21,326 nucleotides of DNA. Origin: a virus. The position numbers were made by a program, and so were the translations under genes. Under the pieces are notes generated by a model, which was not told where the DNA came from, searched no databases, and saw only the letters and a program-made list of their open reading frames with translations. The stretch spans positions 1 to 21,326 of IMG/VR virus record IMGVR_UViG_3300013306_000061. The stretch is one strand, 5' to 3'. This document shows positions 1-21,326 of this stretch, piece by piece; position 1 is the stretch's first letter, and each line of letters opens with the position of its first letter.

Positions 1-1377
1 CCGACCGAGGAGTACGCCGTCATCATGGACGGGACGCCGAAGAAGCGTGCGGACCTGTACACGAAGATCAAGGACACCCGGCCCGACTACGTGATCATGG
101 GATACCCGAACGTGGTCGACGACTGGAACAGTGTGCGCCGGATCAAGCCGGGGGCCATCGTGCTCGACGAGGTCACGGCGATCAAGACCTTCAAGGCCCA
201 GCGCACCCGCAAGATCAAGCGCCTCACGGCCCCGTTCCGCTACGGCCTGACCGGCACGGCGGTGGAGAACGGCAAGCCCGAGGAGATCTTCTCCCAGATG
301 CAGTGGATCGACGACTCGGTGCTGGGCCGCTTCGACCTGTTCGACTCGACCTTCATCGTCCGCAACGGCTTCGGGGGAGTGGTCCGCTACAAGAACCTGG
401 GCGTGCTGCACCAGAAGTTGAAGGACGCCATGGTCCGCAAGACGGCGCTGGACCCCGACGTGGCCCCCTACATGCCAGAGTCGGTGTCTCGCAAGGTTCC
501 TGTGACGATGGACGCCAAGACCAAGAAGGCCTACAACGTCCTGGTGGCCGACCTGCTGGAGCAACTGGCAGCCGTGAAGCCGGGCTCGGGCGGTGACTTC
601 GACGTCTTCAACCACTACCACGGCAGCGGGGACTTCGACGAGAACACCCAGCAGGGCCAGATCATGGCGCGCATGGGGGCCATCGACATGCTCCTGAACC
701 ACCCGGACCTACTGATCAACTCGGGGATGAACTACCAGGAGTCGGAGAAGCAGCGCCAGGCCGGGGTCACCAAGAAGAACTGGCCGGGCAGCAAGTACGC
801 CTACGAGGTGTGGCAGAGCGGCCTGCTCGACGACATCACAACGACTCCGAAGTTGGACGTCTGCATCGAGGAGATCGAGGTCATCCTGGGGCAGAACCCC
901 AAGAACAAGGTGATCATCTTCAGCGTCAACCCGGACATGCTCGAACTGATCGACGACCGGCTCCCCGAGGGGCTCGCCGTCCTGTACCACGGCAAGATGA
1001 ACGCCGGGCGCAAGGCAGCCTCCGCAGCCCGCTTCATGCAGGACGAGGACTGCCGGGTGTTCCTCTCCAGCCACGCTGGCGCGTTCGGCACCGACCTGTA
1101 CATGGCCAACCACCTGATCAACTACGACCTCGCCTGGTCGTCCGGCAAGCAGGACCAGATCAACGCCCGACACGCCCGAGCGGCCTCCACGTTCTCCACC
1201 GTCTTCATCCACAACCTGTTGACAACCGGCACCACGGAGGTCCGGAAGTACGCCTCTCTGGCCCAGAAGCGCCGGGTCGGAAGCGCCATCATGGACGGTA
1301 AGGGTGCGGATGATAAGGGTCGGATCGACAACGACCTAGAGACGCTCACGGAGTACCTGAAGGGCCAGCAGGTCTGA
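1..1377 (+). CDS. SNF2-like DEAD/DEAH-box DNA helicase, 3' part
   Basis: The reading frame is open from base 1, so the 5' end, including the expected Walker A motif, lies outside the window; an internal ATG at 25 is probably not the start. Visible superfamily 2 landmarks are a Walker B-like LDEVTAIK (DE at nt 166-171), motif III LTGTAVEN (nt 244-270) and a motif V/VI block with GAFGTDL followed by QDQINARHARA (about nt 1078-1180). The order and spacing match the SNF2-like helicase/translocase proteins common in actinophages; these are ATP-driven enzymes acting on duplex DNA in replication or recombination. The box is DEVT instead of DEAH. The gene ends with TGA, 12 bases before the next small ORF. 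I am confident of the superfamily and not of the exact role. Confidence 0.88.
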   Translation, partial: PTEEYAVIMDGTPKKRADLYTKIKDTRPDYVIMGYPNVVDDWNSVRRIKPGAIVLDEVTAIKTFKAQRTRKIKRLTAPFRYGLTGTAVENGKPEEIFSQMQWIDDSVLGRFDLFDSTFIVRNGFGGVVRYKNLGVLHQKLKDAMVRKTALDPDVAPYMPESVSRKVPVTMDAKTKKAYNVLVADLLEQLAAVKPGSGGDFDVFNHYHGSGDFDENTQQGQIMARMGAIDMLLNHPDLLINSGMNYQESEKQRQAGVTKKNWPGSKYAYEVWQSGLLDDITTTPKLDVCIEEIEVILGQNPKNKVIIFSVNPDMLELIDDRLPEGLAVLYHGKMNAGRKAASAARFMQDEDCRVFLSSHAGAFGTDLYMANHLINYDLAWSSGKQDQINARHARAASTFSTVFIHNLLTTGTTEVRKYASLAQKRRVGSAIMDGKGADDKGRIDNDLETLTEYLKGQQV

Positions 1378-1389
1378 GATCCTGGGGGC

Positions 1390-1512
1390 ATGAGAGATCC
1401 GCTCGAAGTCATCCTCGCCGAGGCTGGATCCCTTCCGCCAGAGGAGCAGGAGGACTGGGATCTACCGCCACTGCGTGCTCCGCTGACCCGTCTGGCGCAC
1501 GGCGGGAATTGA
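1390..1512 (+). CDS. small acidic hypothetical protein (40 aa)
   Basis: This short ATG-to-TGA frame encodes 40 residues rich in Glu, Asp, Pro and Leu, with no recognisable domain. It fills the gap between the helicase and the promoter region at 1513-1585. A G-rich run (GGGGG at 1384-1388) lies just before the ATG, but it is too close to be an ideal ribosome-binding site. Codon use is typical of the neighbours. Small genes of this sort are common in such phages; the alternative is that the stretch is untranslated 3' sequence. Confidence 0.45.
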   Translation: MRDPLEVILAEAGSLPPEEQEDWDLPPLRAPLTRLAHGGN

Positions 1513-1519
1513 TTCCCAG

Positions 1520-1527
1520 AACCGGTT
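1520..1527. promoter_or_regulatory. AACCGGTT palindrome, operator candidate 1
   Basis: This perfect 8-bp palindrome overlaps the -35 box of the promoter at 1526-1555. A further half-site GAACCGG follows at 1532-1538. The same palindrome recurs in three other intergenic regions of the window. A regulator bound here would cover the -35 box. The operator role is inferred. Confidence 0.5.
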
Positions 1528-1555
1528 GACAGAACCGGAACGTAGCAACTAGGTT
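1526..1555 (+). promoter_or_regulatory. sigma70-type promoter: TTGACA, 18 bp, TAGGTT
   Basis: A consensus -35 box TTGACA (1526-1531) is separated by 18 bp from TAGGTT (1550-1555), a typical actinobacterial -10 form. It sits in an intergenic gap and points at the gene starting at 1586, with transcription expected near 1562. It is the best promoter match in the window, and it overlaps the AACCGGTT palindrome. The spacer holds GAACCGGAA, also seen in the weaker candidate at 14209-14237. Confidence 0.7.
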
Positions 1556-1585
1556 TGCCTCACACCCACTCGTGAGGAGCCTGAG

Positions 1586-2509: not shown

Positions 2510-2992
2510 GTGACCACCACCATTGACCAGAACACCAAGCCGGTCCGGCGAGTTCATACGAAGGGCCCTCGCGTCAGCAAGGCGGGCGTCATCGCCAAGT
2601 TCACGCAGTGGGCCGTCCTGAAGCACGAGGTCACCGAGACCACGAAGCGCCAGAACAAGTTGCGCGACGAGATCTCGACCTACCTGGAGGCCAACGGCTA
2701 CCAGGACGACAAGGGCTCGTTCATCATCGACCTGCCTGAGCCGCTGCTGGCCGGTGGCAAGACCTACACGGCCATCAAGCGTCAGCGCAAGACGTCGCAG
2801 TTCTTCAAGGAGGACGAGGCGACCGCGCTGCTGGAGGCCAAGGGCCTGCTGGCCGAGGCGCAGACCACGCTGACCTACCTGGACCAGGACAAGGTCTACG
2901 TCCTGAACCAGGAGGGCAAGATCACCGACGAGGAGATCGACTCCTTCTTCGGCGAGAACGAGTCCTTCGCGTTCACCCCGGTGACGGAGTGA
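2510..2992 (+). CDS. hypothetical phage protein (160 aa)
   Basis: I do not recognise this protein. The GTG start follows the purine-rich GAAAGAGAG. The N-terminal 25 residues are basic; about residues 27-65 are charged and probably helical, possibly coiled-coil (FTQWAVLKHEVTETTKRQNK). A central beta-like section (KGSFIIDLPEPL, KTYTAIKRQRK) is followed by a helical stretch and an acidic C-terminus. It overlaps the MerR-like gene by four bases (GTGA), so the two are probably translated together. It belongs to the block leading to the ssDNA-binding protein, so a replication-linked job is possible but unproven. Confidence 0.85.
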   Translation: MTTTIDQNTKPVRRVHTKGPRVSKAGVIAKFTQWAVLKHEVTETTKRQNKLRDEISTYLEANGYQDDKGSFIIDLPEPLLAGGKTYTAIKRQRKTSQFFKEDEATALLEAKGLLAEAQTTLTYLDQDKVYVLNQEGKITDEEIDSFFGENESFAFTPVTE

Positions 2993-3435
2993 CGACGGAG
3001 GCCCTCGCCTCCTTCCAGCAGATCGCCCAGGAGTACTACCCCGGTTCGTCGCGCCCGATCATCAGGCACCCGAACCGGAGCAGGGACACCGGCCCCGAGG
3101 TCACCGCCTCGTGGGACCGGAAGCCCCGCACGTACCCCGTCGGCGGCGTGGAGCGCGAGTTCTTCACCATCGGCCAGTTGGCTGAGGCCCTGGGCCGCAA
3201 GCCGGTCACGCTCCGCAAGTGGGAGCGCGAGGGGATCATCCCCAAGGCCACCTTCCGAGCACCGAGCGAGCACGTGCAGGGCGTCCGCCGCCTGTACTCC
3301 CGCGAGCAGGTCGAGGGCATCGTCAAGATCGCCAAGGAAGAGGGCGTCCTGGTCTCCCACCAGACGCCGATCACGCAGACCCAGTTCACCAACCGGGTCG
3401 TCGCCCTGTTCACCTCACTCACCTCAGGAGCCTGA
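2989..3435 (+). CDS. MerR-like helix-turn-helix DNA-binding protein
   Basis: The 148-residue product carries a MerR-type winged HTH at about residues 56-115: FFTIGQLAEALGRKPVTLRKWEREGIIPKA, then a basic loop and RRLYSREQVEGIVKIAKEEG. In the family the TIGQLAE helix pair and the R-K-WE-G-I/L-P pattern bind DNA. There is no long coiled-coil dimer helix or effector domain after the HTH, unlike full MerR regulators, so it resembles the short phage excisionase/MerR-like proteins. Start GTG overlaps the previous stop. It may control phage promoters, and the AACCGGTT sites would be natural candidate targets, but nothing shows that directly. Confidence 0.85.
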   Translation: MTTEALASFQQIAQEYYPGSSRPIIRHPNRSRDTGPEVTASWDRKPRTYPVGGVEREFFTIGQLAEALGRKPVTLRKWEREGIIPKATFRAPSEHVQGVRRLYSREQVEGIVKIAKEEGVLVSHQTPITQTQFTNRVVALFTSLTSGA

Positions 3436-3436
3436 C

Positions 3437-3655
3437 ATGCACGGAAGCCCCAAGCCCGTCGAGCGCGTGGCCACCCCCGCTGGGCGGCTGCTCGGCGAGG
3501 CCCTGGTCGCGGCTCAGGAGAAGACCGGCCTGTCCCTCGTCGAGATCCTCGACCAGTCCCACGTCCTGGAGGAGTGGCCCGAGGACGAGACCTCCGACGG
3601 TGCGCTCGTGGACATGGTCTACGCGTTCACCAAGAAGGCCAAGGCCAAGGTCTGA
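3437..3655 (+). CDS. hypothetical protein (72 aa)
   Basis: I do not recognise this small protein. The ATG lies one base after the stop of the MerR-like gene, with CAGGAG (3425-3430) just upstream as the ribosome-binding site. The product is largely helical and acidic in the middle (residues about 17-62) with a short Lys-rich C-terminal tail (FTKKAKAKV). It overlaps the next gene at TGATG. It has no membrane segment or metal-binding motif. Confidence 0.8.
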   Translation: MHGSPKPVERVATPAGRLLGEALVAAQEKTGLSLVEILDQSHVLEEWPEDETSDGALVDMVYAFTKKAKAKV

Positions 3656-3924
3656 TGGCTGAGGTCACACGATCCCTGAAGCACCACGTCTCGATGGGCA
3701 ACTACGAGTGGGTGGAGTACGGCGCGACCGTCTCCCTCACCCCGGCTGACCTGCCCGAGGGCGTCGAGTCCGACTTCGCGTCGATGCTCGACTTCGCCGA
3801 CGAGGTGCTCCAGAACGCCCTCGCTCCTGACATCCAGGACGCGTGGGCAACCACCGCTGACGACAAGTCCTTTGTCGGCATGCACCCGCTCAACACCGAA
3901 CCCACCAAGAAGGGCAAGAACTAG
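3655..3924 (+). CDS. hypothetical protein upstream of the ssDNA-binding protein (89 aa)
   Basis: The frame is open back to 3574, but the ATG at 3655, overlapping the preceding stop as TGATG, is the sensible start. The product begins with a beta-strand-like segment (MGNYEWVEYGATVSLTP) and continues with a helix rich in acidic residues (residues about 42-65). It ends one codon before the ATG of the ssDNA-binding protein, so the two are almost certainly co-translated. The position suggests a replication accessory role; the sequence itself does not name one. Confidence 0.8.
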   Translation: MAEVTRSLKHHVSMGNYEWVEYGATVSLTPADLPEGVESDFASMLDFADEVLQNALAPDIQDAWATTADDKSFVGMHPLNTEPTKKGKN

Positions 3925-4782
3925 ATGCCGCGCGAGACCATGACCCGACGTCGCCGCCCCGTGAGCGACGACAAGTACGACCCGACCCCGGACGAGTCCG
4001 GCGACGAGGGATACGCCGACGACCAGGACGAGGCCCCCAAGCGGGGCAGCCGTCGTGGATCCGCCCGCTCCGAGGAGAAGCCCTCGGGCCGACGCGGACG
4101 GGTTCATACCGAGGACGGTGACGAGGACGAGAAGCCTCGTGGCCGTCGGGGCAACAGCGCCCGTGACGAGGACGAGGACGAGTCGGCTCCCCGTCCCAAG
4201 GCTGGCAAGGGCTGGGGCGCGTTCAGCAGCCAGAAGTCCGAGAGCAGCGAGTACGCCGAGAACCTGAAGATCGACGACAAGGGTGCTCAGTCGCTGATCA
4301 AGTTCCTGGACGAGGGACCGTTCGCGGTTTACTCCCAGCACTGGATCGAGCGCAAGGGCAAGAAGTCGTTCAACTGCATCGGCAAGGGCTGCCCGCTCTG
4401 CGACAGCCTCGGTGACAAGCCCCGCCTCCAGGCGGCGTTCAACGTCATCGAGTTCCCGGAGGACGGCGACCCGAAGGTGCTCGTCTGGACCGTCGGCACC
4501 AAGGTGGCCACGCAGTTGGAGAACCTCGCCAAGGAGGAGCGCACCAAGCCGCTCAACCGCGACGACCTCTACTGGGCGGTCTCCAAGTCCGGCAAGGGCA
4601 CGGCGACCACGTACTCCATCCAGGCCGTCAAGGAGCGCGACCTGGAGGACGACTGGGACACCCAGCCGCTGACCGAGGACGAGTTCGTGGCCCTCGACGA
4701 GCAGGCGTACGACGACAGCGAGATCACCTACCAGACCAAGAAGGCGCTGCGCGACATCGCCGACGAGGTGCTGGACGACTGA
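3925..4782 (+). CDS. gp32-like ssDNA-binding protein with zinc site
   Basis: The 285-residue product has a disordered, highly charged N-terminus of about 100 residues with alternating acidic and Arg-rich patches, then a folded core. The core carries H139, C151, C156 and C159 (H-x11-C-x4-C-x2-C), close to the His-Cys-Cys-Cys zinc site of T4 gp32, and an acidic C-terminus ending DEVLDD, as expected of ssDNA-binding proteins that recruit partners by an acidic tail. Such proteins coat single-stranded DNA at the fork and in recombination. Its place just before the polymerase agrees. The basic and acidic N-terminal extension is unusual, since T4 gp32 has only a short N-terminal arm. A downstream start at 3940 is possible. 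Confidence 0.8.
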   Translation: MPRETMTRRRRPVSDDKYDPTPDESGDEGYADDQDEAPKRGSRRGSARSEEKPSGRRGRVHTEDGDEDEKPRGRRGNSARDEDEDESAPRPKAGKGWGAFSSQKSESSEYAENLKIDDKGAQSLIKFLDEGPFAVYSQHWIERKGKKSFNCIGKGCPLCDSLGDKPRLQAAFNVIEFPEDGDPKVLVWTVGTKVATQLENLAKEERTKPLNRDDLYWAVSKSGKGTATTYSIQAVKERDLEDDWDTQPLTEDEFVALDEQAYDDSEITYQTKKALRDIADEVLDD

Positions 4783-4822
4783 TCCGGCGCGGGTGGATAC
4801 GCCGCCCGCACCCTGCCCCACC

Positions 4823-4859
4823 GGCCCCCGCTGACTCACCTGGCCAGTCAGCGGGGGCC
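4823..4859 (+). terminator. 14-bp hairpin between ssDNA-binding protein and polymerase genes
   Basis: A perfect 14-bp GC-rich stem (4823-4836 and 4846-4859) with a nine-base loop lies between the stop at 4782 and the polymerase start at 4888. It is followed by a C-rich, not U-rich, stretch. High-GC hosts often use such U-poor hairpins to end or slow transcription, so a terminator or an RNA-stabilising 3' end is likely. No separate promoter was recognised between it and the polymerase. Confidence 0.7.
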
Positions 4860-4887
4860 ACCCCCCCACCACTTGAAGGACACCGCT

Positions 4888-6840
4888 ATGCCCGTAAGCA
4901 CCGACGTCATCTTGACGCCAGACCGCCTGGAGGAGGTGGTCGACCACTTCATGCAGCACGACGCCTTCGCGTTCGACGTCGAGGCGCAGGGTGAGAACCG
5001 GGGAGTCCCGTCCCGAGCCACGCTCTCCTGGATGGGTCTCGCGACTCATGGCATGACGGTGTCGATCCCCTTCGGCCACCCGAACGGCAACCGCCTGATC
5101 AGCAAGGCCACCCGGCGCAAGAACCCCCTGACCAAGAAGATGGACCTGATCCCCGCTCGGTACGACGCACCGCCAGAGCAGATGCGCCCGAGCGAGGTCT
5201 TCCGGATCGTCGAGCCGCTCTTCTTCAGCGACCGCATCAAGATCGCCCACAACGCCACCTACGACCTGATCTCCACGGCCAAGTACTTCGGCGAGATCGC
5301 ACCCCCGGAGTACAGCGACACCATCGTGCTCCAGTGGCTGCTCGACGAGAACATGAAGCAGAAGGGCCTGAAGGAACTCGTCAAGCGCTACTACGGCGTG
5401 GTCTACGACAACGAGAACGTCGGCAAGTGCGTCGAGGCCTACCCGTTCAACAAGGTCGCCCACTACCAGTTCATGGACGCCAAGTACACGTGGATGCTCT
5501 GGAAGAGGTTCCAGCGCAAGATCGAGGAGCAGGGCCTGAGCAAGGTCCGCGACCTGGAGATGGACGTCCTCGGGGTGCTGCTGGACATGGGCATCGAGGG
5601 AGCACCGGTCGACGAGGCTGCCATCCACGAGTTGGAGGCCGACCTCTCCGAGCGCATCGTCGAGATCGAGGGCCGGGTCTACAAGGCCGCAGGCAAGGTC
5701 TTCAACATCAACTCCACCCAGCAGAAGGCCAACCTGCTCTGGGGCCCGAAGGAGGAAGGCGGGCAGGGCCTGAAGCCCCGCAAGCCGACCGACGGTGGCC
5801 TGAAGAAGCAGAAGGCTGGCCAGAGCCTCCAGCCGGTCGACTACAGCACCAACGCCGAGTCGCTGGAGTACTACCCCAAGAACCCGCTCGCCGGGACGCT
5901 CCTGGAGTACCAGGAGGTCAACAAGTTGCTCGGCACCTACGTGCAGGGCTACCTGGGCGTCGAGGGCGACCCGAAGAAGCCCCGCCGCATCTTCGACGGT
6001 CGGATCCACGCCGACTTCGTCCAGTACGGCACGGTGACCGGTCGCTTCTCGTGCCGCGAACCCAACCTCCAGAACATCCCGCGCCCCGGCACCGAACTCG
6101 GCACGAAGATCCGTGGCCTGTTCATCCCGCCGCCCGGCCACAAGTTGATCGTCGCCGACTACGGCCAGATCGAGTTGGTCGTCCTCGCCCACTACCTGGG
6201 CAGGGGCGCTCTGTTCGAGGGCTTCATGGAGGGCGTCGACCCTCACACGATGACCGCCGCCGGGGTGCTCAGGAAGGATCCGTCCGAGGTTCTACCCGCC
6301 GAGCGCCAGGCGTACGGCAAGTCGATCAACTTCGCCGTGGTCTACGGCGCGGGCCCGGACAAGGTCGCGGCCATGGCTGGCATCACCAGCAAGGAGGCCA
6401 AGAAGTTCCTCGGCATCCACATGGAGTCCTTCCCGGAGATCTACGCCTTCAAGGACGAGGTGATCGCTCGGGCTCGCAGCCGCAAGCCCCCGCACATCAC
6501 CACGCTGCTGGGCCGCAAGCGCCGTCTCCCGACGATCATGTCGAGCGACTGGGGTCTGCGTGGCTACGCCGAGCGTCAGGCCGTCAACAGCCTGATCCAG
6601 GGCTCGTCGGCTGACCTCATCAAGTTGGCCATGATCCGGCTCAACAACGCGCTCCCCGAGGACATGCGACTGATCCTCTCGGTGCACGACGAACTCGTCA
6701 CCATCTGCCCGGACGCACGGGTCGAGGAGGGCTCCGAGATCGTTCGGGAAGCCATGCTCGGCGAGGGCATCACCCGGCTGCTGAAGACCCCCGTAACCAG
6801 CGACCTGAAGGTCGTATCCCGATGGAGTGAGGCCAAGTGA
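4888..6840 (+). CDS. family A DNA polymerase with 3'-5' exonuclease domain
   Basis: This 650-residue enzyme is the replicative DNA polymerase. ATG 4888 is chosen because AAGGA lies seven bases upstream; the frame also contains a TTG at 4873. The exonuclease domain shows D30/E32 (FAFDVEA), N122/D126 (HNATYDL) and Y193/D197. The polymerase domain shows motif A ADYGQIEL (D424), motif B R473, K478, F482 and Y486 in RQAYGKSINFAVVYG, and motif C SVHDE (D601). All catalytic residues are present. There is no 5'-3' exonuclease domain, normal for phage polymerases. Phe at position 482, matching F762 of E. coli Pol I, predicts discrimination against dideoxynucleotides. It overlaps the next gene by GTGA. 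Confidence 0.97.
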   Translation: MPVSTDVILTPDRLEEVVDHFMQHDAFAFDVEAQGENRGVPSRATLSWMGLATHGMTVSIPFGHPNGNRLISKATRRKNPLTKKMDLIPARYDAPPEQMRPSEVFRIVEPLFFSDRIKIAHNATYDLISTAKYFGEIAPPEYSDTIVLQWLLDENMKQKGLKELVKRYYGVVYDNENVGKCVEAYPFNKVAHYQFMDAKYTWMLWKRFQRKIEEQGLSKVRDLEMDVLGVLLDMGIEGAPVDEAAIHELEADLSERIVEIEGRVYKAAGKVFNINSTQQKANLLWGPKEEGGQGLKPRKPTDGGLKKQKAGQSLQPVDYSTNAESLEYYPKNPLAGTLLEYQEVNKLLGTYVQGYLGVEGDPKKPRRIFDGRIHADFVQYGTVTGRFSCREPNLQNIPRPGTELGTKIRGLFIPPPGHKLIVADYGQIELVVLAHYLGRGALFEGFMEGVDPHTMTAAGVLRKDPSEVLPAERQAYGKSINFAVVYGAGPDKVAAMAGITSKEAKKFLGIHMESFPEIYAFKDEVIARARSRKPPHITTLLGRKRRLPTIMSSDWGLRGYAERQAVNSLIQGSSADLIKLAMIRLNNALPEDMRLILSVHDELVTICPDARVEEGSEIVREAMLGEGITRLLKTPVTSDLKVVSRWSEAK

Positions 6841-7834: not shown

Positions 7835-9460
7835 TTGAGCACCCCTGAAACTGCCATGTCTCCGTTCGCCGAAACGATCATGAAGCAGAAGTACCTGCAC
7901 CCCGGCGAAGAGACCTGGCGCGACATCGCGAACAGGGTTGTGCCCACCGTCCTCGGCCCGATGTTCCCCGAACTGGTCGACGAGATGACCGAGGCCGTCG
8001 TGGCTCGGAAGTTCATGCCCGGTGGCCGCTACCTCTACGCCACCGGCAAGCGGTTCCACCAGACCCAGAACTGCCTCCTGATGCGTGCTGGCGACAGCCG
8101 CGTCGAGTTGGCCGACCTGATGAACCGGGTCACCAGCGGCCTGATGACCGGCGCTGGCGTCGGCATCGTCTGGTCCGACCTGCGCGAGGAGGGTGCGCTC
8201 GTCAAGGGCATGGGTGGCGAGTCCACCGGCCCCCTCGCCTTCATGCAGATGGTCAACGAGATCGGTCGCCACATCATGCAGGGCGGCTCGCGCCGCGCCG
8301 CGATCTGGGCCGGGCTGCACTGGAATCATCCCGACGTCTTCAAGTTCATCACCCTGAAGAACTGGTCCTCGGACATCGTGGCGATGAAGGAGAAGGACTA
8401 CAACGCCGTCGCGCCGATGGACATGACCAACATCTCGGTCATCCTCGACACGGCCTTCTTCGCGGCCTACGAGGACGAGACCAACGAGATGCACGACTGG
8501 GCCCAGAAGGTCTACTGGTCGGTCGTCGAGCAGATGCTCACCACGGCTGAGCCGGGCTTCTCCATCGACGCCGGGGAGAACGAGGGCGAGAACCTCCGCA
8601 ACGCCTGCACCGAGGTCACGAGCCACGACGACAACGACATCTGCAACCTCGGCTCGCTCAACATGGCCAAGATCGACACGGTCGAGGAGTTCGCCCGCCT
8701 CGTCGAGGTCGGCACCGCCTTCCTGCTGGCTGGCACCGAGTACTCCCTGGTCCCCTACGAGGGCGTGGCCCAGACCCGGCAGAAGAACCGCCGCCTCGGG
8801 CTCGGCATCATGGGCGTCTACGAGTGGCTGGTGAAGCGGGGCTACCGCTACGAGCCGAACGACGAGTTGGGCCTGTGGCTCGACGAGTACGCCAAGAGCA
8901 CGGAGATCTCCCACCGCTACGCCGACCGCGCTGGCATCAGCCGTCCGGTGAAGACGCGGGCCATCGCCCCGACCGGCACCATCGGCATCCTGGCCGAGAC
9001 GACCACGGGGATCGAGCCCTTGTTCGCAGCGGCCTACAAGCGCCGCTACCTGAAGGGCCAGGAGTGGCACTTCCAGTACGTCGTGGACGCCACCGCTCAG
9101 CGCCTGGCCGACCAGTACGGCGTGGACCCGGACAGCCTGGAGACCGCGTACGTCCTGGCCTCCGACCCCGAGCGCCGGATCCGGTTCCAGGCCTGGGTGC
9201 AGCAGTGGGTCGACCACGGCATCTCCAGCACCCTGAACCTGCCGGGCTGGATGGAGCAGGACTTCACCCACAAGGAGTTCGGCGGCTTCCTCATGAAGCA
9301 CCTGCCGAACCTGCGCGGCGTGACTTGCTACCCGGACGGCGCACGAGGCGGTCAGCCGCTCAACGTGGTGCCCTACTCCGAGGCCAAGGCCCAGATCGGC
9401 ATCGAGTACCTGGAGATCGGCAACGACCAGGCCTGCGTCAGCGGGGTGTGCGGCGTATGA
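7835..9460 (+). CDS. nrdJ: class II (adenosylcobalamin-type) ribonucleoside reductase
   Basis: This 541-residue enzyme makes deoxynucleotides from ribonucleotides. It shows the family's thiyl-radical motif N256-A-C258-T-E260, redox cysteines C80 (QNCLLM) and C270 (DICNLGSLN), the phosphate-binding APTGTIG (residues 378-384), and a C-terminal CVSGVC pair (C534/C539) that passes electrons to the active site. The lack of a class I radical subunit gene next to it and the compact length favour a B12-dependent class II enzyme. Translation starts at TTG: TTTGGAG at 7823-7829 is five bases away, while the first ATG (7856) has no such site. It overlaps the thioredoxin gene by ATGA, coupling enzyme and reductant. 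Confidence 0.92.
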   Translation: MSTPETAMSPFAETIMKQKYLHPGEETWRDIANRVVPTVLGPMFPELVDEMTEAVVARKFMPGGRYLYATGKRFHQTQNCLLMRAGDSRVELADLMNRVTSGLMTGAGVGIVWSDLREEGALVKGMGGESTGPLAFMQMVNEIGRHIMQGGSRRAAIWAGLHWNHPDVFKFITLKNWSSDIVAMKEKDYNAVAPMDMTNISVILDTAFFAAYEDETNEMHDWAQKVYWSVVEQMLTTAEPGFSIDAGENEGENLRNACTEVTSHDDNDICNLGSLNMAKIDTVEEFARLVEVGTAFLLAGTEYSLVPYEGVAQTRQKNRRLGLGIMGVYEWLVKRGYRYEPNDELGLWLDEYAKSTEISHRYADRAGISRPVKTRAIAPTGTIGILAETTTGIEPLFAAAYKRRYLKGQEWHFQYVVDATAQRLADQYGVDPDSLETAYVLASDPERRIRFQAWVQQWVDHGISSTLNLPGWMEQDFTHKEFGGFLMKHLPNLRGVTCYPDGARGGQPLNVVPYSEAKAQIGIEYLEIGNDQACVSGVCGV

Positions 9461-11413: not shown

Positions 11414-11799
11414 TGGTGATGCACCTCCGCATCCCCGCGCCGCGCTGGCACGGTGGAGGCGACCCGCTGAAGGAAGCGCACTGCTACTCCTTCCCGGTCT
11501 CTCGGGCCTACGACCCCTGGTTCGGGATGGTCGACGGCAAGTTCGACATCTCCGAGCAGGACGAGGCGATGAAGATCTGCAACGGCATCGACTCAGGCCG
11601 GGTCTGCCCGCTCCGACAGGAGTGCCTCGTCTTCTCGCTGAAGAACAACTGCGGGGACGGGATCTGGGGCGGCATGCACGAAGAGGACCGGACGCAGATG
11701 CGTCGATTCATGAAGGAGAAGGACTGGGCATGGCACGAGCCGACGCTACGCGAGCACGAACTCCCGGTGGACGACGACGGGTCAAGCCTGTTGGTCTGA
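11413..11799 (+). CDS. WhiB-family regulator with altered cysteine spacing
   Basis: The 128-residue protein shows the WhiB hallmarks: C24, C56, C65 and C71 as cluster ligands, CPLRQECLVFSL after the third Cys, and the G-[IV]-WGG turn (GIWGGM, residues 83-88). Canonical WhiB proteins have C-x2-C-x5-C; here it is C56-x8-C65-x5-C71, a six-residue insertion between two ligands, and there is an extra Cys at 80. WhiB proteins carry an [4Fe-4S] cluster and act with the main sigma factor in actinobacteria. A phage copy probably redirects host transcription or mimics a host WhiB. ATG overlaps the previous stop. Identity as WhiB is secure; the altered spacing is directly visible. Confidence 0.88.
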   Translation: MVMHLRIPAPRWHGGGDPLKEAHCYSFPVSRAYDPWFGMVDGKFDISEQDEAMKICNGIDSGRVCPLRQECLVFSLKNNCGDGIWGGMHEEDRTQMRRFMKEKDWAWHEPTLREHELPVDDDGSSLLV

Positions 11800-12968: not shown

Positions 12969-13221
12969 CAAGATCAAGGCCCTATCCGCCGTGGCGAATA
13001 TGGCTGAGAAGACAGTGACTGCGGCCAAGGCTCGGGCCTACGAGGACCAGGCGTTCATCGAGGCCCAGGAAGCCGTCCACGCGGCGTACGCCTTCCGGAA
13101 GTTGACCGAGTCGATCTACACCGCGACCGACAACAAGGCCGCGCTGCTCTCCCGCGAACTCACCCGCCGGGTGAACCGCAACGACCGCGACTCTCGCGCC
13201 AACGGAAGGTTCGGATCATGA
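12700..13221 (+). CDS. hypothetical helical protein (173 aa), overlapping the Cas4-like gene
   Basis: ATG 12700 has a strong GAAGGAG six bases upstream (12687-12693), and the frame shows the normal codon bias, so this is a real gene despite a 269-base overlap with the Cas4-like frame. The product has an Arg-rich first 40 residues, then LPEDITDLSDAELM and long helices (residues about 55-160) with many Ala and Glu. Its layout recalls a group of actinophage proteins of unknown function that sit near recombination genes; no catalytic motif is visible. It overlaps the HAD-like gene by ATGA. Confidence 0.88.
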   Translation: MTRRVVRPMKNLTLSMGTASLEAARRLELQGLDVPIRPRDDVPDLPEDITDLSDAELMGTFVRLTRWTEYIGAQLAAAQVDEKYADASLDKIKALSAVANMAEKTVTAAKARAYEDQAFIEAQEAVHAAYAFRKLTESIYTATDNKAALLSRELTRRVNRNDRDSRANGRFGS

Positions 13222-13757
13222 GGATCGGCGTGGACGTGGACGACGTCCTGTTCCCTTGGGGCTACCGAGCGCACGCGCTCTGCAAGGCAGCCGGGATCAC
13301 CAACGGCAAGCAGGTCACCCAGTGGGAGGCGCACCTGGACTACGGCGTGCCACTCCAGTCGTGGCTCGACGCTGTCGGCCCGATGGTGGACGACGGCTCC
13401 TACCTCGCGGCCCCGTACGAGGGCGTACAGGACGCGCTGGCGCGGCTCCAGGCAGCCGGGCACACCATCCACCTCGTCACGGCCCGTGGGGGCTTCTCTC
13501 GCGGCTCGGAGATCCGCCAGCAGACCATCCAGTGGCTCAGCGACTGGGAGATCCCCTACGACGCCCTGACGTTCTCCAAGGACAAGACCGTCGTCAACGT
13601 GGACGTCTTCATCGACGACAGCCTGAAGAACTACGACGCGCTCGTGGCAGCCGGGGTCAACACCTACCTCGTGAACCAGCCGCACAACGGCCCGTGGTTC
13701 GACCGCCGTCAGCGGGTCAACTCCTTCGTCGAGTTCGCGGACCTGCTGTGCCAGTAG
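13218..13757 (+). CDS. HAD-superfamily 5'(3')-deoxyribonucleotidase-like protein
   Basis: The 179-residue product carries the HAD motifs: DVDDVL (D6 nucleophile, D8 acid), HLVTAR (motif II Thr), a Lys (FSKDKT, motif III) and DVFIDDS (motif IV metal ligands). Length and cap layout suit the small 5'(3')-nucleotidase branch of the family, which removes phosphate from nucleotides. Together with ribonucleotide reductase and dNMP kinase it would tune the deoxynucleotide pool, although a DNA 3'-phosphatase role beside the RNA ligase is also possible. ATG overlaps the previous stop. The substrate cannot be read from sequence. Confidence 0.8.
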   Translation: MRIGVDVDDVLFPWGYRAHALCKAAGITNGKQVTQWEAHLDYGVPLQSWLDAVGPMVDDGSYLAAPYEGVQDALARLQAAGHTIHLVTARGGFSRGSEIRQQTIQWLSDWEIPYDALTFSKDKTVVNVDVFIDDSLKNYDALVAAGVNTYLVNQPHNGPWFDRRQRVNSFVEFADLLCQ

Positions 13758-14323: not shown

Positions 14324-14518
14324 ATGAGCCACCTTCATACTCGGGGCTACGTCAGCCCCAGCCCCCGGCGGAACGCGTTCCTCGCTGCCCAGCGCAAGCG
14401 GAACCGCCGCCACACCCTGGGAGGCATCGCCATCGTCCTGGGCGCTGTCCTGGCCAACCTGATCTTCTGGCCCGCCCTGGTCTTCCTCATCGTCGTCGCC
14501 GCGAAGTGGGCTGCCTGA
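14324..14518 (+). CDS. small membrane protein (64 aa)
   Basis: ATG 14324 follows TAGGAG (about eight bases upstream). The first 30 residues are strongly basic (RRN, KRKRNRR-type clusters), followed by a hydrophobic stretch at residues 32-60 (from LGGIAIVLGA to FLIVVAA) that is long enough for one or two membrane passes, broken by a Pro. The positive-inside rule puts the N-terminus in the cytoplasm. It ends in TGATG with the RNA ligase gene. The role is unknown; a link to lysis is not supported, as the endolysin is 6 kb away. Confidence 0.78.
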   Translation: MSHLHTRGYVSPSPRRNAFLAAQRKRNRRHTLGGIAIVLGAVLANLIFWPALVFLIVVAAKWAA

Positions 14519-15144
14519 TGGCGCGCAAGGTCCAGGAGGGCTATCCGGCCTGGGGTTCGACCCCTCGCCTGCACCGGGGATACATCGTCACCGAGAAGAT
14601 CGACGGCACCAACGGGCTGATCTCCATCGAGGTCGTCGACCCGACCAGCGTTGGTTCGACCGGACTGGCCGTTGTCGTCCAGACCGGGGAGGCCACCTAC
14701 CTCGTGCGAGCAGGCTCCCGCACCCGCTGGCTCGGCGACGGCCAGGAGAACCATGGCTTCTGGGCCTGGGTCAAGGAGAACGCCCTCACCCTCGTGAACG
14801 ACCTGGGCGAGGGCCTGCACTACGGCGAGTGGTTCGGCAAGGGGATCAACTCGGGCTACGGCCTCGACGAGAAGTACTTCGCCCTGTTCAACAGCCACCG
14901 CTGGGAGGGTTCGTCGTTCACCACGCCGAACCTGACGGTCGTACCGGTCCTGCACAAGGGTGACAACGCGGCCAACCTCAACGAGGTCGTCGAGAACCTC
15001 ATCGCCGACCTGGCGACGTTCGGCTCGCACGCCCGTCCGGGTGCGCTGGCCGAGGGCATCATCATCTTCCACGTCGCCTCGGGCCAGAAGTTCAAGGTCA
15101 CCATCCAGAACGACGAGAAGCCCAAGTCGCTGGTGAACGCATGA
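14518..15144 (+). CDS. Rnl2-like ATP-dependent RNA ligase
   Basis: The 208-residue product belongs to the nucleotidyltransferase superfamily: motif I EKIDGTN with nucleophile K27, motif III-like YGEWFGKGI (residues 102-110), motif IV AEGIIIF (E179) and motif V FKVTIQ (K191 or K193). It would join RNA ends through AMP intermediates, and in phages commonly repairs RNA such as tRNA cut by host defence nucleases. It is shorter than T4 Rnl2 and lacks its C-terminal domain. ATG 14518 overlaps the previous stop; an in-frame GTG at 14506 is less likely. No polynucleotide kinase was seen, but the HAD-like phosphatase is close. Confidence 0.85.
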   Translation: MARKVQEGYPAWGSTPRLHRGYIVTEKIDGTNGLISIEVVDPTSVGSTGLAVVVQTGEATYLVRAGSRTRWLGDGQENHGFWAWVKENALTLVNDLGEGLHYGEWFGKGINSGYGLDEKYFALFNSHRWEGSSFTTPNLTVVPVLHKGDNAANLNEVVENLIADLATFGSHARPGALAEGIIIFHVASGQKFKVTIQNDEKPKSLVNA

Positions 15145-15464: not shown

Positions 15465-15871
15465 TCCCCTACCTGCTCCTCATCCTCCTGCTGGCTGTCA
15501 GCGGGGCCCTGGCCTTCGCGTGGCACGTCCTGCGCCTGGCCCAGCAGGAGATCGACCGCCTGGACGACGTGGTCGAGACGCAGGGCCTGGAGATGGTCCG
15601 ACTCAGGGCCCGCGACCTGGAGGTCAAGAAGCACGCCGAGACGCTGCTGATCCACATGGCTCCGCTCGTCGAGAAGACCGACTGGATGACGGGTCGCTGG
15701 CACGGCAAGTTCAACGAACTCGTCCGCCTGGAGAACCAGCGCAACCAGGCGGCAGAGCACATCCGCAAGGCGCTCTTCGAGATGCCCGGCATCCGTGACT
15801 TCACCAAGGCCCACGGTCGGGATCTCTTCAAGGGCGCAACCACCCAAGGACTCAGGAGCCTCATCGGATGA
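15461..15871 (+). CDS. membrane-anchored coiled-coil protein (136 aa)
   Basis: The protein begins with a hydrophobic segment (residues 2-21, PYLLLILLLAVSGALAF) that would anchor it in the membrane, then a long charged helix (residues about 25-75, LRLAQQEIDRLDDVVETQG and following) with coiled-coil heptad spacing, and a more mixed C-terminus. This architecture suggests an inner-membrane protein with a cytoplasmic rod, but the family is not known to me. Start and stop overlap both neighbours as ATGA. Confidence 0.8.
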   Translation: MIPYLLLILLLAVSGALAFAWHVLRLAQQEIDRLDDVVETQGLEMVRLRARDLEVKKHAETLLIHMAPLVEKTDWMTGRWHGKFNELVRLENQRNQAAEHIRKALFEMPGIRDFTKAHGRDLFKGATTQGLRSLIG

Positions 15872-16449
15872 CCAAGATTCATCTCCCGCGCGTCGTCGGA
15901 GTTCACGGCGTCGCGCGTTCAGGTAAGGACACCATCGGCGAGGGGCTGGCGAAGCACGGCTACGAGCGCGTCTCGTTCGCCGACCCCATGCGCCGGGCGC
16001 TGTACAAGATGGACATGATCATCGGGGCGGACACCAAGGGTCGGCTCTGGAGGCTGGCCGAGGTGGTCGACGACATCGGCTGGGACGACGCCAAGACGGC
16101 CATGGACAGCGAGCCCCGTCGGCTGCTCCAGGTCTTCGGCACCGAGGTCGGTCGCGACATGTTCGGCGAGAACTTCTGGGTCGACCAGGCCCTGAAGATC
16201 GTGAACGCCCGGCCCGAGCAGCGGTTCGTCTTCACCGACGTCCGGTTCGAGAACGAGGTCGAGGCCGTCCGCAACCTGCCCGACTCGTACCTGCTGAAGG
16301 TGGAGCGGCCCGGCGTGGTGTCGATCAACGGCCACTCCAGCGACCGGTCGCTGCCGAACCACCTGTTCGACTCCTCGGTCATGAACGACGACACCATCGA
16401 GTACCTGCACGCCACGGTCCTTGATCATCTCCGGTGGGTCCACGGATGA
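15868..16449 (+). CDS. deoxynucleoside monophosphate kinase
   Basis: The 193-residue product has a P-loop GVARSGKDT (residues 14-22) and follows the phage dNMP kinase family (T4 gp1-like): FADPMRRALY near the substrate site, RLLQVFGTEVGRDMFGENFWVD, and the strand VFTDVRFENEVEAV. It phosphorylates dNMPs to dNDPs, feeding the nucleotide pool together with the ribonucleotide reductase and the HAD-like protein. The P-loop differs from GxxGxGKT by having Asp after the Lys, which is usual in this family. It overlaps both neighbours by ATGA. Confidence 0.88.
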   Translation: MTKIHLPRVVGVHGVARSGKDTIGEGLAKHGYERVSFADPMRRALYKMDMIIGADTKGRLWRLAEVVDDIGWDDAKTAMDSEPRRLLQVFGTEVGRDMFGENFWVDQALKIVNARPEQRFVFTDVRFENEVEAVRNLPDSYLLKVERPGVVSINGHSSDRSLPNHLFDSSVMNDDTIEYLHATVLDHLRWVHG

Positions 16450-17003
16450 TCTACATCGGCATCGACCAGTCGTACTCGGGCTTCGGCCTGGTCGGCTACA
16501 ACTTGGAGACCGGGGACCACCAGGCCGTGCTCGGCAAGTTCGACCCCAAGAAGTACGGCACGGGGATCGACAGGCTCTACGAGATCGACCAGTGGCTGGA
16601 GGAGGAGATCTCCGGGCTCAACGAGGGTCGCCCCTCGCTCACCGGCCACGTCTGCATGGAGGGCTACGCGCCGGGCTCGAAGTTCGGTCGTGAGAAGGCG
16701 GGGGAGTTGGGTGCCACGGTCAAGATGACGCTGCGTAACTGCCTCCCGGACCCCGTCAACTACCCGACCATCGTCAGCCCGACCGGCCTGAAGAAGTACG
16801 TGCTCGGCAAGGCAGCCTCGGGCAAGAACGTCATGCTCCTGGGTGTCTACAAGAAGTGGGGAGTGGAGTTCGCCAACGACAACCTGGCGGACGCCTACGC
16901 CCTGGCACGGATCGCAGCAGCCATGGACGGGGGTGGCAGCCTGGTCTACGAGCGGGACGTCATTTCCGCCCTGACCCGACACACGGAACGCCTCAATTCC
17001 TGA
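16446..17003 (+). CDS. RuvC-like Holliday junction resolvase
   Basis: The 185-residue protein has an RNase H-like fold with the RuvC catalytic set: D7 (YIGIDQSYSGFG), E72 (VCMEGYAPGSKFGREKAGEL) and D145 or D149 (NDNLADAYALARIA). It should cut four-way junctions or other branched DNA before packaging. With the PD-(D/E)XK protein at 11081 the phage has two unrelated nucleases of this role. ATG 16446 overlaps the kinase stop, while the frame extends to a GTG at 16434. The last codons are AT-richer and the intergenic hairpin follows at once. Confidence 0.87.
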   Translation: MIYIGIDQSYSGFGLVGYNLETGDHQAVLGKFDPKKYGTGIDRLYEIDQWLEEEISGLNEGRPSLTGHVCMEGYAPGSKFGREKAGELGATVKMTLRNCLPDPVNYPTIVSPTGLKKYVLGKAASGKNVMLLGVYKKWGVEFANDNLADAYALARIAAAMDGGGSLVYERDVISALTRHTERLNS

Positions 17004-17013: not shown

Positions 17014-17088
17014 TGTTAGTACTCCTGGTCGGATTTCCCCTACCCTCGGGTGAGGATTACAAATCGGATTCGACCAGGAGTACTGACA
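17014..17088 (+). promoter_or_regulatory. inverted repeat hiding the ribosome-binding site of the SpoVS gene
   Basis: A 14-bp perfect inverted repeat (17018-17031 and 17071-17084) extends outward through a G-U, A-U, G-C and A-U to 17014/17088, and inward by wobble pairs to about 17036/17066. The right arm contains AGGAG (17076-17080) and the first base of the ATG at 17088. In an RNA that includes both arms the start would be shut. The direct repeat AATCGGATTC (17003-17012 and 17062-17071) flanks the left arm. A weak promoter inside the loop (TTCCCC 17035, TACAAA 17058, spacer 17) would give an RNA lacking the left arm. G+C is about 50% over 16991-17080. Confidence 0.75.
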
Positions 17089-17375
17089 TGGCCACGACTG
17101 ACACTGAAGACCGGATTCTCCGCGTCAAGGGGTCGTCGGCCCCGTCTTCCCTCGCCTCCGCGATCTCCCACGGCGTCTCCGACGGCCAGAACGTCGTGAT
17201 GCGCGCCATCGGCGCTGCCGCCGTCAACCAGGCCATCAAGGCCGTGGCCATCGCCCGGTCCTTCGTGGCCTCCCGAGGCATCGACCTCCACTGCATCCCC
17301 GCCTTCCACACGGTCGACGTGAACGGCGAGGAGATGTCCGCCATCGTGATCAAGGTCTTCCCGGCCAAGAACTGA
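17088..17375 (+). CDS. SpoVS-domain protein (95 aa)
   Basis: Nearly the whole protein matches the stage V sporulation protein S family: ILRVKGSSAPSSLASAI, then AIGAAAVNQAIKAVAIARSF, then GIDLHCIPAFHTVDVNGEEMSAIVIKVFP. In bacteria SpoVS is a small dimeric protein with an Alba-like, nucleic-acid-binding fold that affects spore development; its biochemical role is unsettled. Here it may alter host development or chromosome structure, or help expression of late genes. Translation starts at ATG 17088 with AGGAG seven bases upstream; that site is inside the inverted repeat. It has its own intergenic leader, rare in this compact window, and so is probably regulated separately. Confidence 0.9.
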   Translation: MATTDTEDRILRVKGSSAPSSLASAISHGVSDGQNVVMRAIGAAAVNQAIKAVAIARSFVASRGIDLHCIPAFHTVDVNGEEMSAIVIKVFPAKN

Positions 17376-19066: not shown

Positions 19067-19843
19067 ATGGCAGCCAAGAAGCCGCTCGACATGAGCAACC
19101 CGCGCCACTTCAAGGTGGCCGTGCAGAACGTCCGCAACGTGCACGACAGCGCCGACGCGGCCACCCAGGAGGCTGGGCGCACGTGGTATCCGCAGGTCCA
19201 CGACGCGGTCGCCAAGGGCGTCAAGGGCACCTCGACGTCCGAGCGGGCGGGTGCTGGGCTGGTGTCCGCTGTCTCCCCGAACATGGACTGGGAGGGTGGC
19301 AACATCCACGCGCTGCGGGAACTGCACCGGCTGAAGGCGGCGGACTTCGCCAACATCAACAAGGGTGACCGCACCTCGCTGAAGGGGCTCAGCATCTCGG
19401 CTGCGTACGGCAGCGGCATCGAGAAGGCCCACCGGATCATGCAGGGTGAGGATCCGGACCACGTCCTGACCGGCCCGAAGACGAACGCGTTCTTCCACAA
19501 CATCCACGAGCCGCACGTCGGCGGTCCGGTCACGGTCGACGGGCGGGCGTACGACATCGCCCACAACCGGCTGCAGACCTGGACGGCTGACCGGGGGATC
19601 TCGGGCCAGATGCACACCCCCAAGGGCGTGGTCACCTCGGCCCACGTGCGCTACAACCGGGTCGCCGACGTCTACCGGTCTGCAGCCTCCGCGATCTCGC
19701 AGGAGAGCGGCCAGGAGATCCACCCGCACGACGTGCAGGCGGTCACCTGGGAGCAGGGCAAGCGGATCGAGCGGTCGGGCACTACGGCGTCGGGGCAGCC
19801 TCGGAAGGTCGGGGTTCGTCGGATGGGTCAGCCGTACCTCTGA
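19067..19843 (+). CDS. phage protein of unknown function, DUF7178-like pattern (258 aa)
   Basis: ATG 19067 follows GGAGG at about 19055-19059. The product has a recognisable pattern seen in many actinophage proteins: a WYPQVHDAV helix, AGAGLVSAVSPNMDWEGGN, a helix, TGPKTNAFFHNIHEP, VTVDGRAYDIAHNR, and a closing HDVQAVTWEQGKR. I recall a DUF7178 family of this kind, but cannot confirm it. The SP-x-x-W and VTVD motifs could form a ligand- or nucleic-acid-binding site; no activity is known to me. Its last 62 bases lie under the minus-strand gene at 19782-19973. Confidence 0.87.
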   Translation: MAAKKPLDMSNPRHFKVAVQNVRNVHDSADAATQEAGRTWYPQVHDAVAKGVKGTSTSERAGAGLVSAVSPNMDWEGGNIHALRELHRLKAADFANINKGDRTSLKGLSISAAYGSGIEKAHRIMQGEDPDHVLTGPKTNAFFHNIHEPHVGGPVTVDGRAYDIAHNRLQTWTADRGISGQMHTPKGVVTSAHVRYNRVADVYRSAASAISQESGQEIHPHDVQAVTWEQGKRIERSGTTASGQPRKVGVRRMGQPYL

Positions 19844-19986: not shown

Positions 19987-20019
19987 ACCGTTCCGCACGA
20001 CATTGAAAGGGCCGATCAG

Positions 20020-20316
20020 ATGCAGTCAGCAGATGGGCAGTACGACTACTCGCGGCCCTGGCAGAGCAACGAGGAGCGGCTCACGAGTCAGGCCCTGGGA
20101 GCCATCGCTCAGATGCCTGCGGCGGTCATCCAGCAGATCCGACCGCCGCTCCCGCGAGTGCAGTTGTTCCCGCCTCGAACCGGTTACCGGGTGGACGCAT
20201 TCGGAATCCGAGACGTCGTGAATGTCTCGACCATCTATCCGGGCTCCCGAACCGACTATTCTGGAAGCAATTCCGGATACCAGGGAACCTCGACTCCGTC
20301 TCTCGGTTTGATGTAA
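20020..20316 (+). CDS. hypothetical protein (98 aa), low-GC 3' half
   Basis: ATG 20020 follows GAAAGGG about eight bases upstream. The product has a Gln- and Asp-rich start, a Pro/Arg/Val middle (IRPPLPRVQLFPPRTGYRV), and a Ser/Tyr/Gly-rich tail (SRTDYSGSNSGYQGTSTPS), so it may be partly extended or disordered. From about 20170 to 20310 the DNA is less GC-rich (about 56% by hand count over 20191-20310) and holds another AACCGGTT (20178-20185). I do not recognise the protein. Confidence 0.8.
   Translation: MQSADGQYDYSRPWQSNEERLTSQALGAIAQMPAAVIQQIRPPLPRVQLFPPRTGYRVDAFGIRDVVNVSTIYPGSRTDYSGSNSGYQGTSTPSLGLM
20178..20185. promoter_or_regulatory. AACCGGTT palindrome inside a coding region
   Basis: This is the fifth copy of the 8-bp palindrome and the only one within a gene (20020-20316). 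It lies in a patch of lower G+C. It may be a chance copy or a site controlling the endolysin region downstream. Confidence 0.35.
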
Positions 20317-20324
20317 GGACACGC

Positions 20325-20495
20325 ATGAGCAAGAGCCACAAGCCGCACCGGGCAGACGACAAGAGGAACCCCGGTCTCGGCGACAACGTGAAGACAACCG
20401 TCCGTCAGGGCGAAGGCGCGGGCCACCGGCTCGTCGACCTGTTCAACGACCGGTCCAAGGGTCGCAACGGCAAGGGCAAGAGGAGCGTCAAGTAA
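20325..20495 (+). CDS. very small basic protein (56 aa)
   Basis: ATG 20325 has AAGGAC six bases upstream and the frame ends at TAA 20493-20495, overlapping the next ATG as TAATG. The product is strongly basic (Lys, Arg and His about 18 of 56) with KGRNGKGKRSVK at its C-terminus and no hydrophobic core. It could be nucleic-acid or virion-associated. The ribosome-binding site, codon use and start-stop overlap make it a real gene. Confidence 0.75.
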   Translation: MSKSHKPHRADDKRNPGLGDNVKTTVRQGEGAGHRLVDLFNDRSKGRNGKGKRSVK

Positions 20496-20731
20496 TGGCA
20501 TACCCCCAGTCGCGTTCGATGAACGCAGAACTCAACGAGGGTGCGACCGACGGCAAGTACAAGAAGGTCATCGCGAACCGTGGTGGCGTCGTCGAGCCCA
20601 GCACCTACAAGAACCGGGTCGACCTCGACGGTCACTACTACGGCATCCACGAGGAGCCGGTCAAGATCCGTCCCGACGGCAAGGCCGTTCATACTCCGCT
20701 GTACGTGCCGACCGGTGAGGCGCAGTACTGA
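20495..20731 (+). CDS. hypothetical protein (78 aa)
   Basis: ATG 20495 overlaps the previous stop (TAATG), and its own stop overlaps the endolysin start (TGATG), so it is translated together with both. The product is mixed, with a Tyr/His-rich middle (STYKNRVDLDGHYYGIHEEPVKIR) and strands near the end (KAVHTPLYVPTG). No family was recognised. Its tight link to the endolysin could mean a role in lysis or late expression, but no membrane segment is present. Confidence 0.8.
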   Translation: MAYPQSRSMNAELNEGATDGKYKKVIANRGGVVEPSTYKNRVDLDGHYYGIHEEPVKIRPDGKAVHTPLYVPTGEAQY

Positions 20732-21326
20732 TGACCGTCTACAGCCAGAACGGCTACGTCGCCAACAACGTCGGGCTGACCAAGGTCTACACGGTCCCGA
20801 AGTCCAAGGTGAAGTTGCGTCTCCGCAAGGGCGACGTCGCTGCTGTCCTGCTGTACGTCGCGGCCTGGGTCGACCAGAACGTCGAGGACATCGACACCCG
20901 CGCGGGCGTCCGTGGCTTCGACGTGGCCGACGATTGGTCCTACGCTGAGCGCCCGATCCGGGGCCAGACGAAGACCCTCAGCAACCACTCCTCGGGCACG
21001 GCCATCGACATCAACGCCGTGCGCCATGGGCGTGGCGTCCACGGCACCTGGACCACCGCTCAGAAGGCCAAGATCCACGCCTTCCTGAAGACCCTCGACG
21101 GGGTCGTGCGCTGGGGCGAGGACTACTCCTCGGCCTCGGTCATCGACGGCATGCACTTCGAGATCGTCGGCTCCCCGGCCCAGGTCAAGGCGGTCGCCAA
21201 GAAGATCGGCAAGACGGGCTCCAAGAGCCGCACGGCCATCGCCTCGATCCTCGCGGTGCTGGCCCTCTCGGCTGCTGGGTACGGCGTCAACACGGCCACC
21301 AACCCTGGCCCGCCCGCCCCGAAGCC
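20731..21326 (+). CDS. M15-family peptidase endolysin, 3' end beyond window
   Basis: The frame is open to the last base, giving at least 198 residues. It shows the M15 D-Ala-type peptidase motifs: SNHSSGTAIDIN with zinc ligands H86 and D93, and DGMHFEIVGSP with catalytic D139 and zinc ligand H142 (D-x2-H as in the T5 endolysin). It cuts peptide bonds in the cell-wall cross-links and so breaks the host wall at the end of infection. Residues about 168-184 (RTAIASILAVLALSAAGY) are hydrophobic, followed by a Pro/Asn-rich stretch, so a membrane anchor or linker may come before a second domain. ATG 20731 overlaps the previous stop. Confidence 0.9.
   Translation, partial: MTVYSQNGYVANNVGLTKVYTVPKSKVKLRLRKGDVAAVLLYVAAWVDQNVEDIDTRAGVRGFDVADDWSYAERPIRGQTKTLSNHSSGTAIDINAVRHGRGVHGTWTTAQKAKIHAFLKTLDGVVRWGEDYSSASVIDGMHFEIVGSPAQVKAVAKKIGKTGSKSRTAIASILAVLALSAAGYGVNTATNPGPPAPK

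Follow-up and report, generated by a model that had tools for sequence, protein, structure and literature searches.

Why should a stretch of phage DNA do entirely without one four-letter word? The question is raised by the IMG/VR virus record IMGVR_UViG_3300013306_000061, whose positions 1 to 21,326 (the window, by which the whole stretch of 21,326 nucleotides analysed is meant throughout) hold not a single AGCT. The answer that we consider very probable is that the window comes from an actinobacterial, probably lytic phage whose genome has been cleared of the recognition sites of several type II restriction enzymes encountered in its hosts. None of these sites has been removed as completely or as widely as AGCT, and the case represents a known strategy, the elimination of type II sites, that is extreme here both in completeness and in the number of sites involved.

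Absence of AGCT from the window

A direct count over the 21,326 bases gives zero AGCT, against 67.1 copies expected under a second-order Markov model and 68.3 from base composition, which bears out the zero copies and roughly 66 expected reported in an earlier note on this DNA. When each protein called in the window was held constant and its synonymous codons were permuted, 200 rounds of shuffling gave a mean of 47.9 copies (standard deviation 3.6, minimum 37) in the called genes, where none is present. In the same genes, leucine following a codon that ends in AG is written TTG in 21 of 21 cases, while leucine in all other positions is written CTN 401 times and TTG 7 times (408 codons). The coding frames are indeed bent to avoid the word, as the earlier note had proposed, and the six-base words that it quoted at eight example positions were found within 3 bases of them (the words only, frames apart). 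Given the Markov expectation and the 200 synonymous shuffles, neither composition nor codon usage nor protein sequence accounts for the loss of AGCT.

The target is the 4-bp word AGCT itself, as for an AluI-like enzyme, because it is missing in all contexts, beyond the hexamers of SacI, PvuII or HindIII; these hexamers were considered as the true target and rejected. Other restriction palindromes said to be present, GGATCC, CTGCAG, GCATGC and CCATGG, do occur, with 7, 3, 3 and 8 copies in the called genes. If near-absence of a site is defined as an observed/expected ratio below 0.1 with more than 15 copies expected, AGCT falls below that threshold in the window (0 of 67) and in G001 (1 of 168), a 47.5-kb contig whose end is 99.98% identical to the window from base 220 to at least base 20,975.

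AGCT across related records

Relatives were located through DNA polymerase I as a marker. Twelve records of the group, spanning 613,124 bp and guanine-plus-cytosine (GC) contents of 45-67%, together hold 4 copies of AGCT against about 2,005 expected, and RecA proteins across the AGCT-free group are only about 50% identical. This set includes G001 and leaves out the window, which overlaps G001, and G012, a relative of G011. Besides G001, the counts (observed/expected, here and below) are 0/384 in G008 (106 kb), 0/295 in G009 (101 kb), 0/182 in G010, 0/199 in G004 (GC 45%), 0/167 in G013, 2/154 in G011, 0/117 in G014, 0/118 in G016, 1/106 in G015, 0/72 in G003 and 0/42 in G002, with 0/59 in G012. 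The records are not independent, as G015 and G016 are closely related to each other and to G009. Short avoider loci counted singly agree (L003 0/18, L004 0/20, L014 0/17, L015 0/45 and L042 0/27). The loss spans genic and intergenic DNA: about 279 copies are expected outside the called genes of the twelve records, where 2 of the 4 survivors sit, this DNA being partly coding since the gene caller misses some genes (at least one in the window, the Cas4-like frame described below).

Other related phages carry AGCT at normal frequency (G005 447/421, G017 297/264, G006 213/184 and G007 216/183), and so do further relatives (G018 630/672, G024 564/551 and G019 388/507). In some relatives of low GC content AGCT is reduced by about half, as in G028 (143/288); ratios of about 0.4-0.6 are found in L051-L053, L055, L056, L059, L079, L084, L097, G028 and G022. 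The low-GC loci L046, L047, L054, L109 and L110 contain no GATC (0/75 in L109), with AGCT at about 0.45-0.85 of expectation; in these loci a different 4-bp site has been eliminated in parallel.

Other eliminated palindromes

The earlier note overlooked that other words are missing as well. In the window, 7 of 25 testable 6-bp palindromes are wholly absent, compared with 0 of 943 non-palindromic 6-mers; the missing words are GCCGGC, CCGCGG, CTCGAG, GGCGCC, CGATCG, CCCGGG (0/14) and CGGCCG (0/16). Since at least eight sites, AGCT among them, have been eliminated from the window, the suggestion of a single toxic recognition word does not hold. A 6-mer was counted as near-eliminated in the related records when observed at no more than 10% of an expectation of at least 8, words containing AGCT being excluded. 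Summed over per-record rows, 65 of 344 palindromes against 9 of 15,841 non-palindromes are near-eliminated in the twelve avoider records, and 28 of 374 against 4 of 17,658 in ten records without AGCT elimination (AGCT normal, slightly low or half). Eight of these ten relatives have at least two eliminated palindromes each, such as AGGCCT, CTGCAG, GGATCC or CTCGAG. Normal AGCT counts in a host and in relatives had been named by the earlier note as a result that would refute its reading. This applies by half: sister lineages do have normal counts, though in the majority of those tested other palindromes are missing in place of AGCT.

The list of eliminated words is lineage-specific. Over the twelve records GCCGGC stands at 1/351, CCGCGG at 6/291 and CTCGAG at 25/357 (24 of the 25 in G002), while GGCGCC (38/262) and CGATCG (73/240) are eliminated in most; both of the latter are near normal in G011 and G014, and CGATCG also in G013. 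The longer contig G001 has nine eliminated hexamers, compared with seven in the window. GCCGGC and CCGCGG are gone from both G001 and G009, whereas CCCGGG and CGGCCG are eliminated in G001 (0/30 and 0/34) and normal in G009 (92/83 and 107/105). G013 is without AGGCCT and CACGTG.

Degenerate and gapped words belong to the same picture. Four of the nine near-eliminated non-palindromes are CTCAAG, which together with CTCGAG forms the degenerate palindrome CTYRAG, eliminated in 4 of 19 records scanned; the same scan flags WACGTW in G009 (2/26). CCAGG and CCTGG have zero copies in G009 and G004, which suggests elimination of CCWGG. In G008, TCGNCGA is absent against about 113 copies expected and TCCGGA stands at 0/40, possibly pointing to an unusual gapped restriction specificity. 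GGGNCCC is strongly reduced in G001 (2 against about 20), G008 (3 against about 43) and G013 (0 against about 26), as is TCCNGGA in G013 (1 against about 26). Overall, the eliminated words are almost all palindromes, and they are lost within and outside called genes.

AGCT loss along the RecA tree

The state changes along the tree far less often than shuffled labels would. In a first RecA tree of 89 rows (95 rows minus the duplicates L002, L003, L004, L005, L011 and L038; 67 of the 89 kept rows are distinct), the AGCT-free label, carried by 17 rows, needs 3 changes, where shuffled labels need 15.3 on average, and it occurs in three separate groups. In a second tree, built from 30 selected rows, 4 changes are needed, because L179 and L180 sit inside the AGCT-free clade of the window with normal AGCT. 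These are relatives of the phage group lying within Streptosporangiaceae assemblies, L179 on a scaffold of Nonomuraea typhae (77/67) and L180 on a scaffold of Herbidospora galbida (93/74); backbone support around their nesting is moderate (bootstrap 91-92). Normal AGCT would be expected there if the host-resident DNA is methylated or if that host lacks the enzyme. L180 is still without GCCGGC (0/24) and CCGCGG (0/16). The scan of bacterial genomes that includes Nonomuraea and Herbidospora also gave an Acidobacteriaceae metagenome-assembled genome, with AGCT at 16/22. The Acidobacteria phage Tunturi_3 is near normal over its first 50 kb (247/283); its recombinase lies on a very long branch and is little informative.

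Host restriction as the probable selecting agent

Strong selection against a restriction target, which the earlier note had put forward, is the best-supported reading, because the eliminated words are nearly all palindromes, some of them degenerate or gapped, and the set varies by lineage. Phage DNA without protecting methylation would be exposed to host type II restriction; each unmethylated site would carry a chance of cleavage on entry, so that mutants gaining sites would be lost, and synonymous swaps such as TTG for CTN after AG-ending codons would delete sites while leaving the proteins unchanged. The enzymes exerting the selection would then be type II endonucleases of the hosts, including an AluI-type enzyme that cuts AGCT.

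The search for phage methylases covered two families, PF00145 and PF01555. None of the 13 avoider records, several of them fragments, has a PF00145 methylase in this family search, and PF01555 gave no match in any of the 22 records searched, whether avoiders or others, and so fails to tell the groups apart. The two long half-depleted records searched, G028 and G022, each carry a C5-methylase whose match is split into two pieces; it may protect that group instead of, or during, site loss. On the side of the hosts, among 396 genomes sampled from the phylum to which Nonomuraea belongs, 23 have the XhoI nuclease family and 3 the NaeI family. At least two of the predicted enzymes thus have relatives among possible hosts, although family homology is no proof of identical specificity.

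Several observations weigh against this explanation. The relatives G024 (0 of 52 testable 6-bp palindromes eliminated) and G028 (0 of 30), neither of them AGCT-eliminated, have lost no palindrome, and the AGCT-free G004 (0 of 30) and G002 (0 of 6) show no eliminated 6-bp palindrome either, CTCGAG standing at 24/15 in G002. The host of the window was not found in the scan of bacterial genomes, and an AGCT-cutting enzyme was found in no host, the sampling covering the XhoI- and NaeI-type families. As to the lytic lifestyle, the window covers part of a genome, and it encodes a protein that weakly matches the excisionase/regulator family phrog_66. Finally, the AGCT-free state extends over GC contents of 45-67% and three groups of the tree, wider than the enzyme of one host explains. 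Such breadth would require that AGCT enzymes are widespread in these hosts, that gains occurred more than once, or that there is a further shared cause.

It is unlikely that one and the same cause acts on AGCT throughout, either carried along by the phages or near-universal in their hosts, and separate from the lineage-specific enzymes behind the other missing sites; candidates would be a fast-evolving phage nuclease or a conserved, undescribed actinobacterial defence against AGCT. A more specific proposal is that the phages encode an AGCT-specific nuclease, turned against rival phages or the DNA of the host, and avoid the site in their own genome. AGCT is eliminated in every avoider whatever its GC content or other lost sites, as a phage-borne cause travelling with the lineage would have it. 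Nevertheless, among 212 clusters of called genes from 24 records, no gene family is present in all avoiders and absent elsewhere, a test weakened by fragmentary records and genes missed by the caller; it was on this ground that the candidate was rejected. Moreover, other palindromes are lost in the same lineage-specific manner, so that many such nucleases would be required, and AGCT-normal elements nest inside the AGCT-free clade, all of which makes this quite unlikely.

The pattern reveals selection on a word and not the identity of an enzyme, and it could in principle reflect another palindrome-reading host defence, for example a phosphorothioate-linked one, or a toxin that cuts messenger RNA at AGCU. 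A purely messenger RNA target sits poorly with the loss of all but 2 sites outside called genes, and the many palindromes, degenerate and gapped ones included, fit the ordinary type II range best; we therefore regard this as very unlikely. A mutational origin, in which AGCT is C5-methylated and decays by deamination to AACT or AGTT, is highly improbable. AACT does exceed expectation (1.22-1.84) in the eight GC-rich avoiders examined, and phage C5 methylases are present in the two half-depleted relatives; yet AACT is similarly high (1.44-1.51) in four GC-rich AGCT-normal relatives and near 1.0 in the avoider G004, and these neighbour-word ratios disfavour decay of 5-methylcytosine. Decay would also leave a remnant, unlike the 4 copies in 2,005 observed, the avoiders yielded no PF00145 methylase, and the loss of GCCGGC, CCGCGG and other words is left unexplained. 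An origin in chance, codon usage or faulty assembly, for which no supporting point was found, is barely conceivable given that all 200 synonymous shuffles yielded at least 37 copies, that the absence recurs across many IMG source numbers while related contigs of the same collection are AGCT-normal, and that the window sequence recurs at 99.98% identity in another record (possibly from the same sample).

Gene content, host and lifestyle

Thirty-three genes were called in the window, all on the + strand, and no transfer RNA genes were found in it. The replication and nucleotide genes begin with an SNF2-type DNA helicase cut by the window edge (1-1377; Pfam SNF2-rel_dom and Helicase_C, phrog_62), followed by a MerR-like helix-turn-helix protein (2989-3435; Pfam MerR_1, 4.9e-7; weak phrog_66 match, 4.1e-5), a single-strand DNA binding protein (SSB; 3925-4782; phrog_14578), whose position matches the annotated SSB of Streptomyces phage GiJojo, and a family A DNA polymerase I (4888-6840; Pfam DNA_pol_A, 1.7e-92; Streptomyces phage homologues at 52-53%). 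An antisense open frame of 875 codons (3619-6246, - strand) runs opposite the genes for SSB and polymerase and is most likely a by-product of high GC. A ribonucleotide reductase (7856-9460; Pfam Ribonuc_red_lgC; 71% to phage BRock) precedes the RecA/UvsX-like recombinase that served as the tree marker (9821-10978; Pfam RecA, 1e-39).

A WhiB-like transcription factor follows (11413-11799; Pfam Whib, 2.1e-9). WhiB-like factors are an actinobacterial family and a homologue is present in 24 of 24 records compared, the window among them; the hosts of the group are therefore most likely actinobacteria, as judged from gene content. The open frame at 11337-12968 matches a Cas4-like exonuclease over residues 178-453 (phrog_2506, 9.6e-33; no Pfam match), and the true start of the exonuclease probably lies downstream of the frame start at 11337. 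Further along are a 5'-deoxynucleotidase (13218-13757; Pfam NT5C), an RNA ligase (14506-15144; Pfam RNA_ligase), a deoxynucleotide monophosphate kinase (15868-16449; Pfam DNMK), a RuvC-like resolvase (16434-17003; phrog_159, 6.7e-27), a SpoVS-like protein (17088-17375; Pfam SpoVS, 4.9e-28), a DUF7178 protein (19067-19843; Pfam DUF7178) and an M15 peptidase endolysin that runs off the window (20731-21324; Pfam Peptidase_M15_4, phrog_1512), all on the + strand. SpoVS belongs to a sporulation family, and homologues occur in 20 of the 24 records. The kinase class also occurs in phages with modified bases; protection of that kind in the window phage would relax the selection so evident here. No integrase was found among the proteins of this fragment scanned against Pfam and phrog, but one of them has the weak phrog_66 match.

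Relation to known systems

Staphylococcal phage K is a large lytic phage reportedly free of GATC, and would likewise lack one 4-bp palindrome altogether; the site and the host phylum differ, and more sites are lost here. Closer in host, broad-host-range Streptomyces phages described by Cox and Baltz in 1984 reportedly plate where the sites of the resident enzyme are missing. In those actinomycete phages, too, the missing sites are said to mirror host enzymes, plating having been measured there while the present case is argued from sequence alone.

The nearest named relatives of the window are the Streptomyces phages GiJojo, BRock and pSt2308, with ribonucleotide reductases 69-71% identical to that of the window. 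The gene order resembles the replication region of GiJojo, in whose annotation the order of helicase, SSB, polymerase I, ribonucleotide reductase, RecA, WhiB and Cas4 is mostly shared and the RNA ligase is placed elsewhere. Unlike in the window, AGCT is near normal or slightly low in 42-kb stretches of GiJojo (187/242), BRock (187/233) and pSt2308 (196/250); in contrast to the AGCT-free window, GiJojo and BRock are without CTGCAG and GGATCC.

Complete or near-complete site elimination is stated, in the portion of Rusinov et al. (2018; PMC6286503) available here, to occur in about one tenth of viral genomes, mostly at orthodox type II sites and in non-temperate phages. The window resembles those phages in an observed/expected ratio below 0.1 with more than 15 copies expected and in the palindromic type II nature of the sites, and the host-resident L179 and L180 are likewise without AGCT elimination. 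It differs from what that portion describes in that one 4-bp site is lost across a group with about 50% RecA identity, together with seven to nine hexamers. No report of AGCT-free actinophages was found among the matches listed in the open-licence literature, and the available part of PMC9516812 holds nothing on site avoidance. AluI is given as an example of an AGCT enzyme in the accessible text of PMC12707154, and that of PMC6329791 records N4-methylcytosine in two organisms, neither of them actinobacterial: a Nitrosoarchaeum, where the methylated site is AGCT, and a Methylopumilus, where the methylated motifs contain AGCT.

Implications

The missing palindromes form a negative print of the restriction enzymes met by a phage lineage, and uncultivated contigs suffice to read it. 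In the present case the prediction is that past hosts possessed an enzyme for AGCT and enzymes of no fewer than seven further specificities. Such predictions could help in assigning hosts and in choosing broad-host-range actinophages. Furthermore, the AGCT-normal, host-resident relatives inside an AGCT-free clade offer a case for timing both the gain and the loss of site avoidance.

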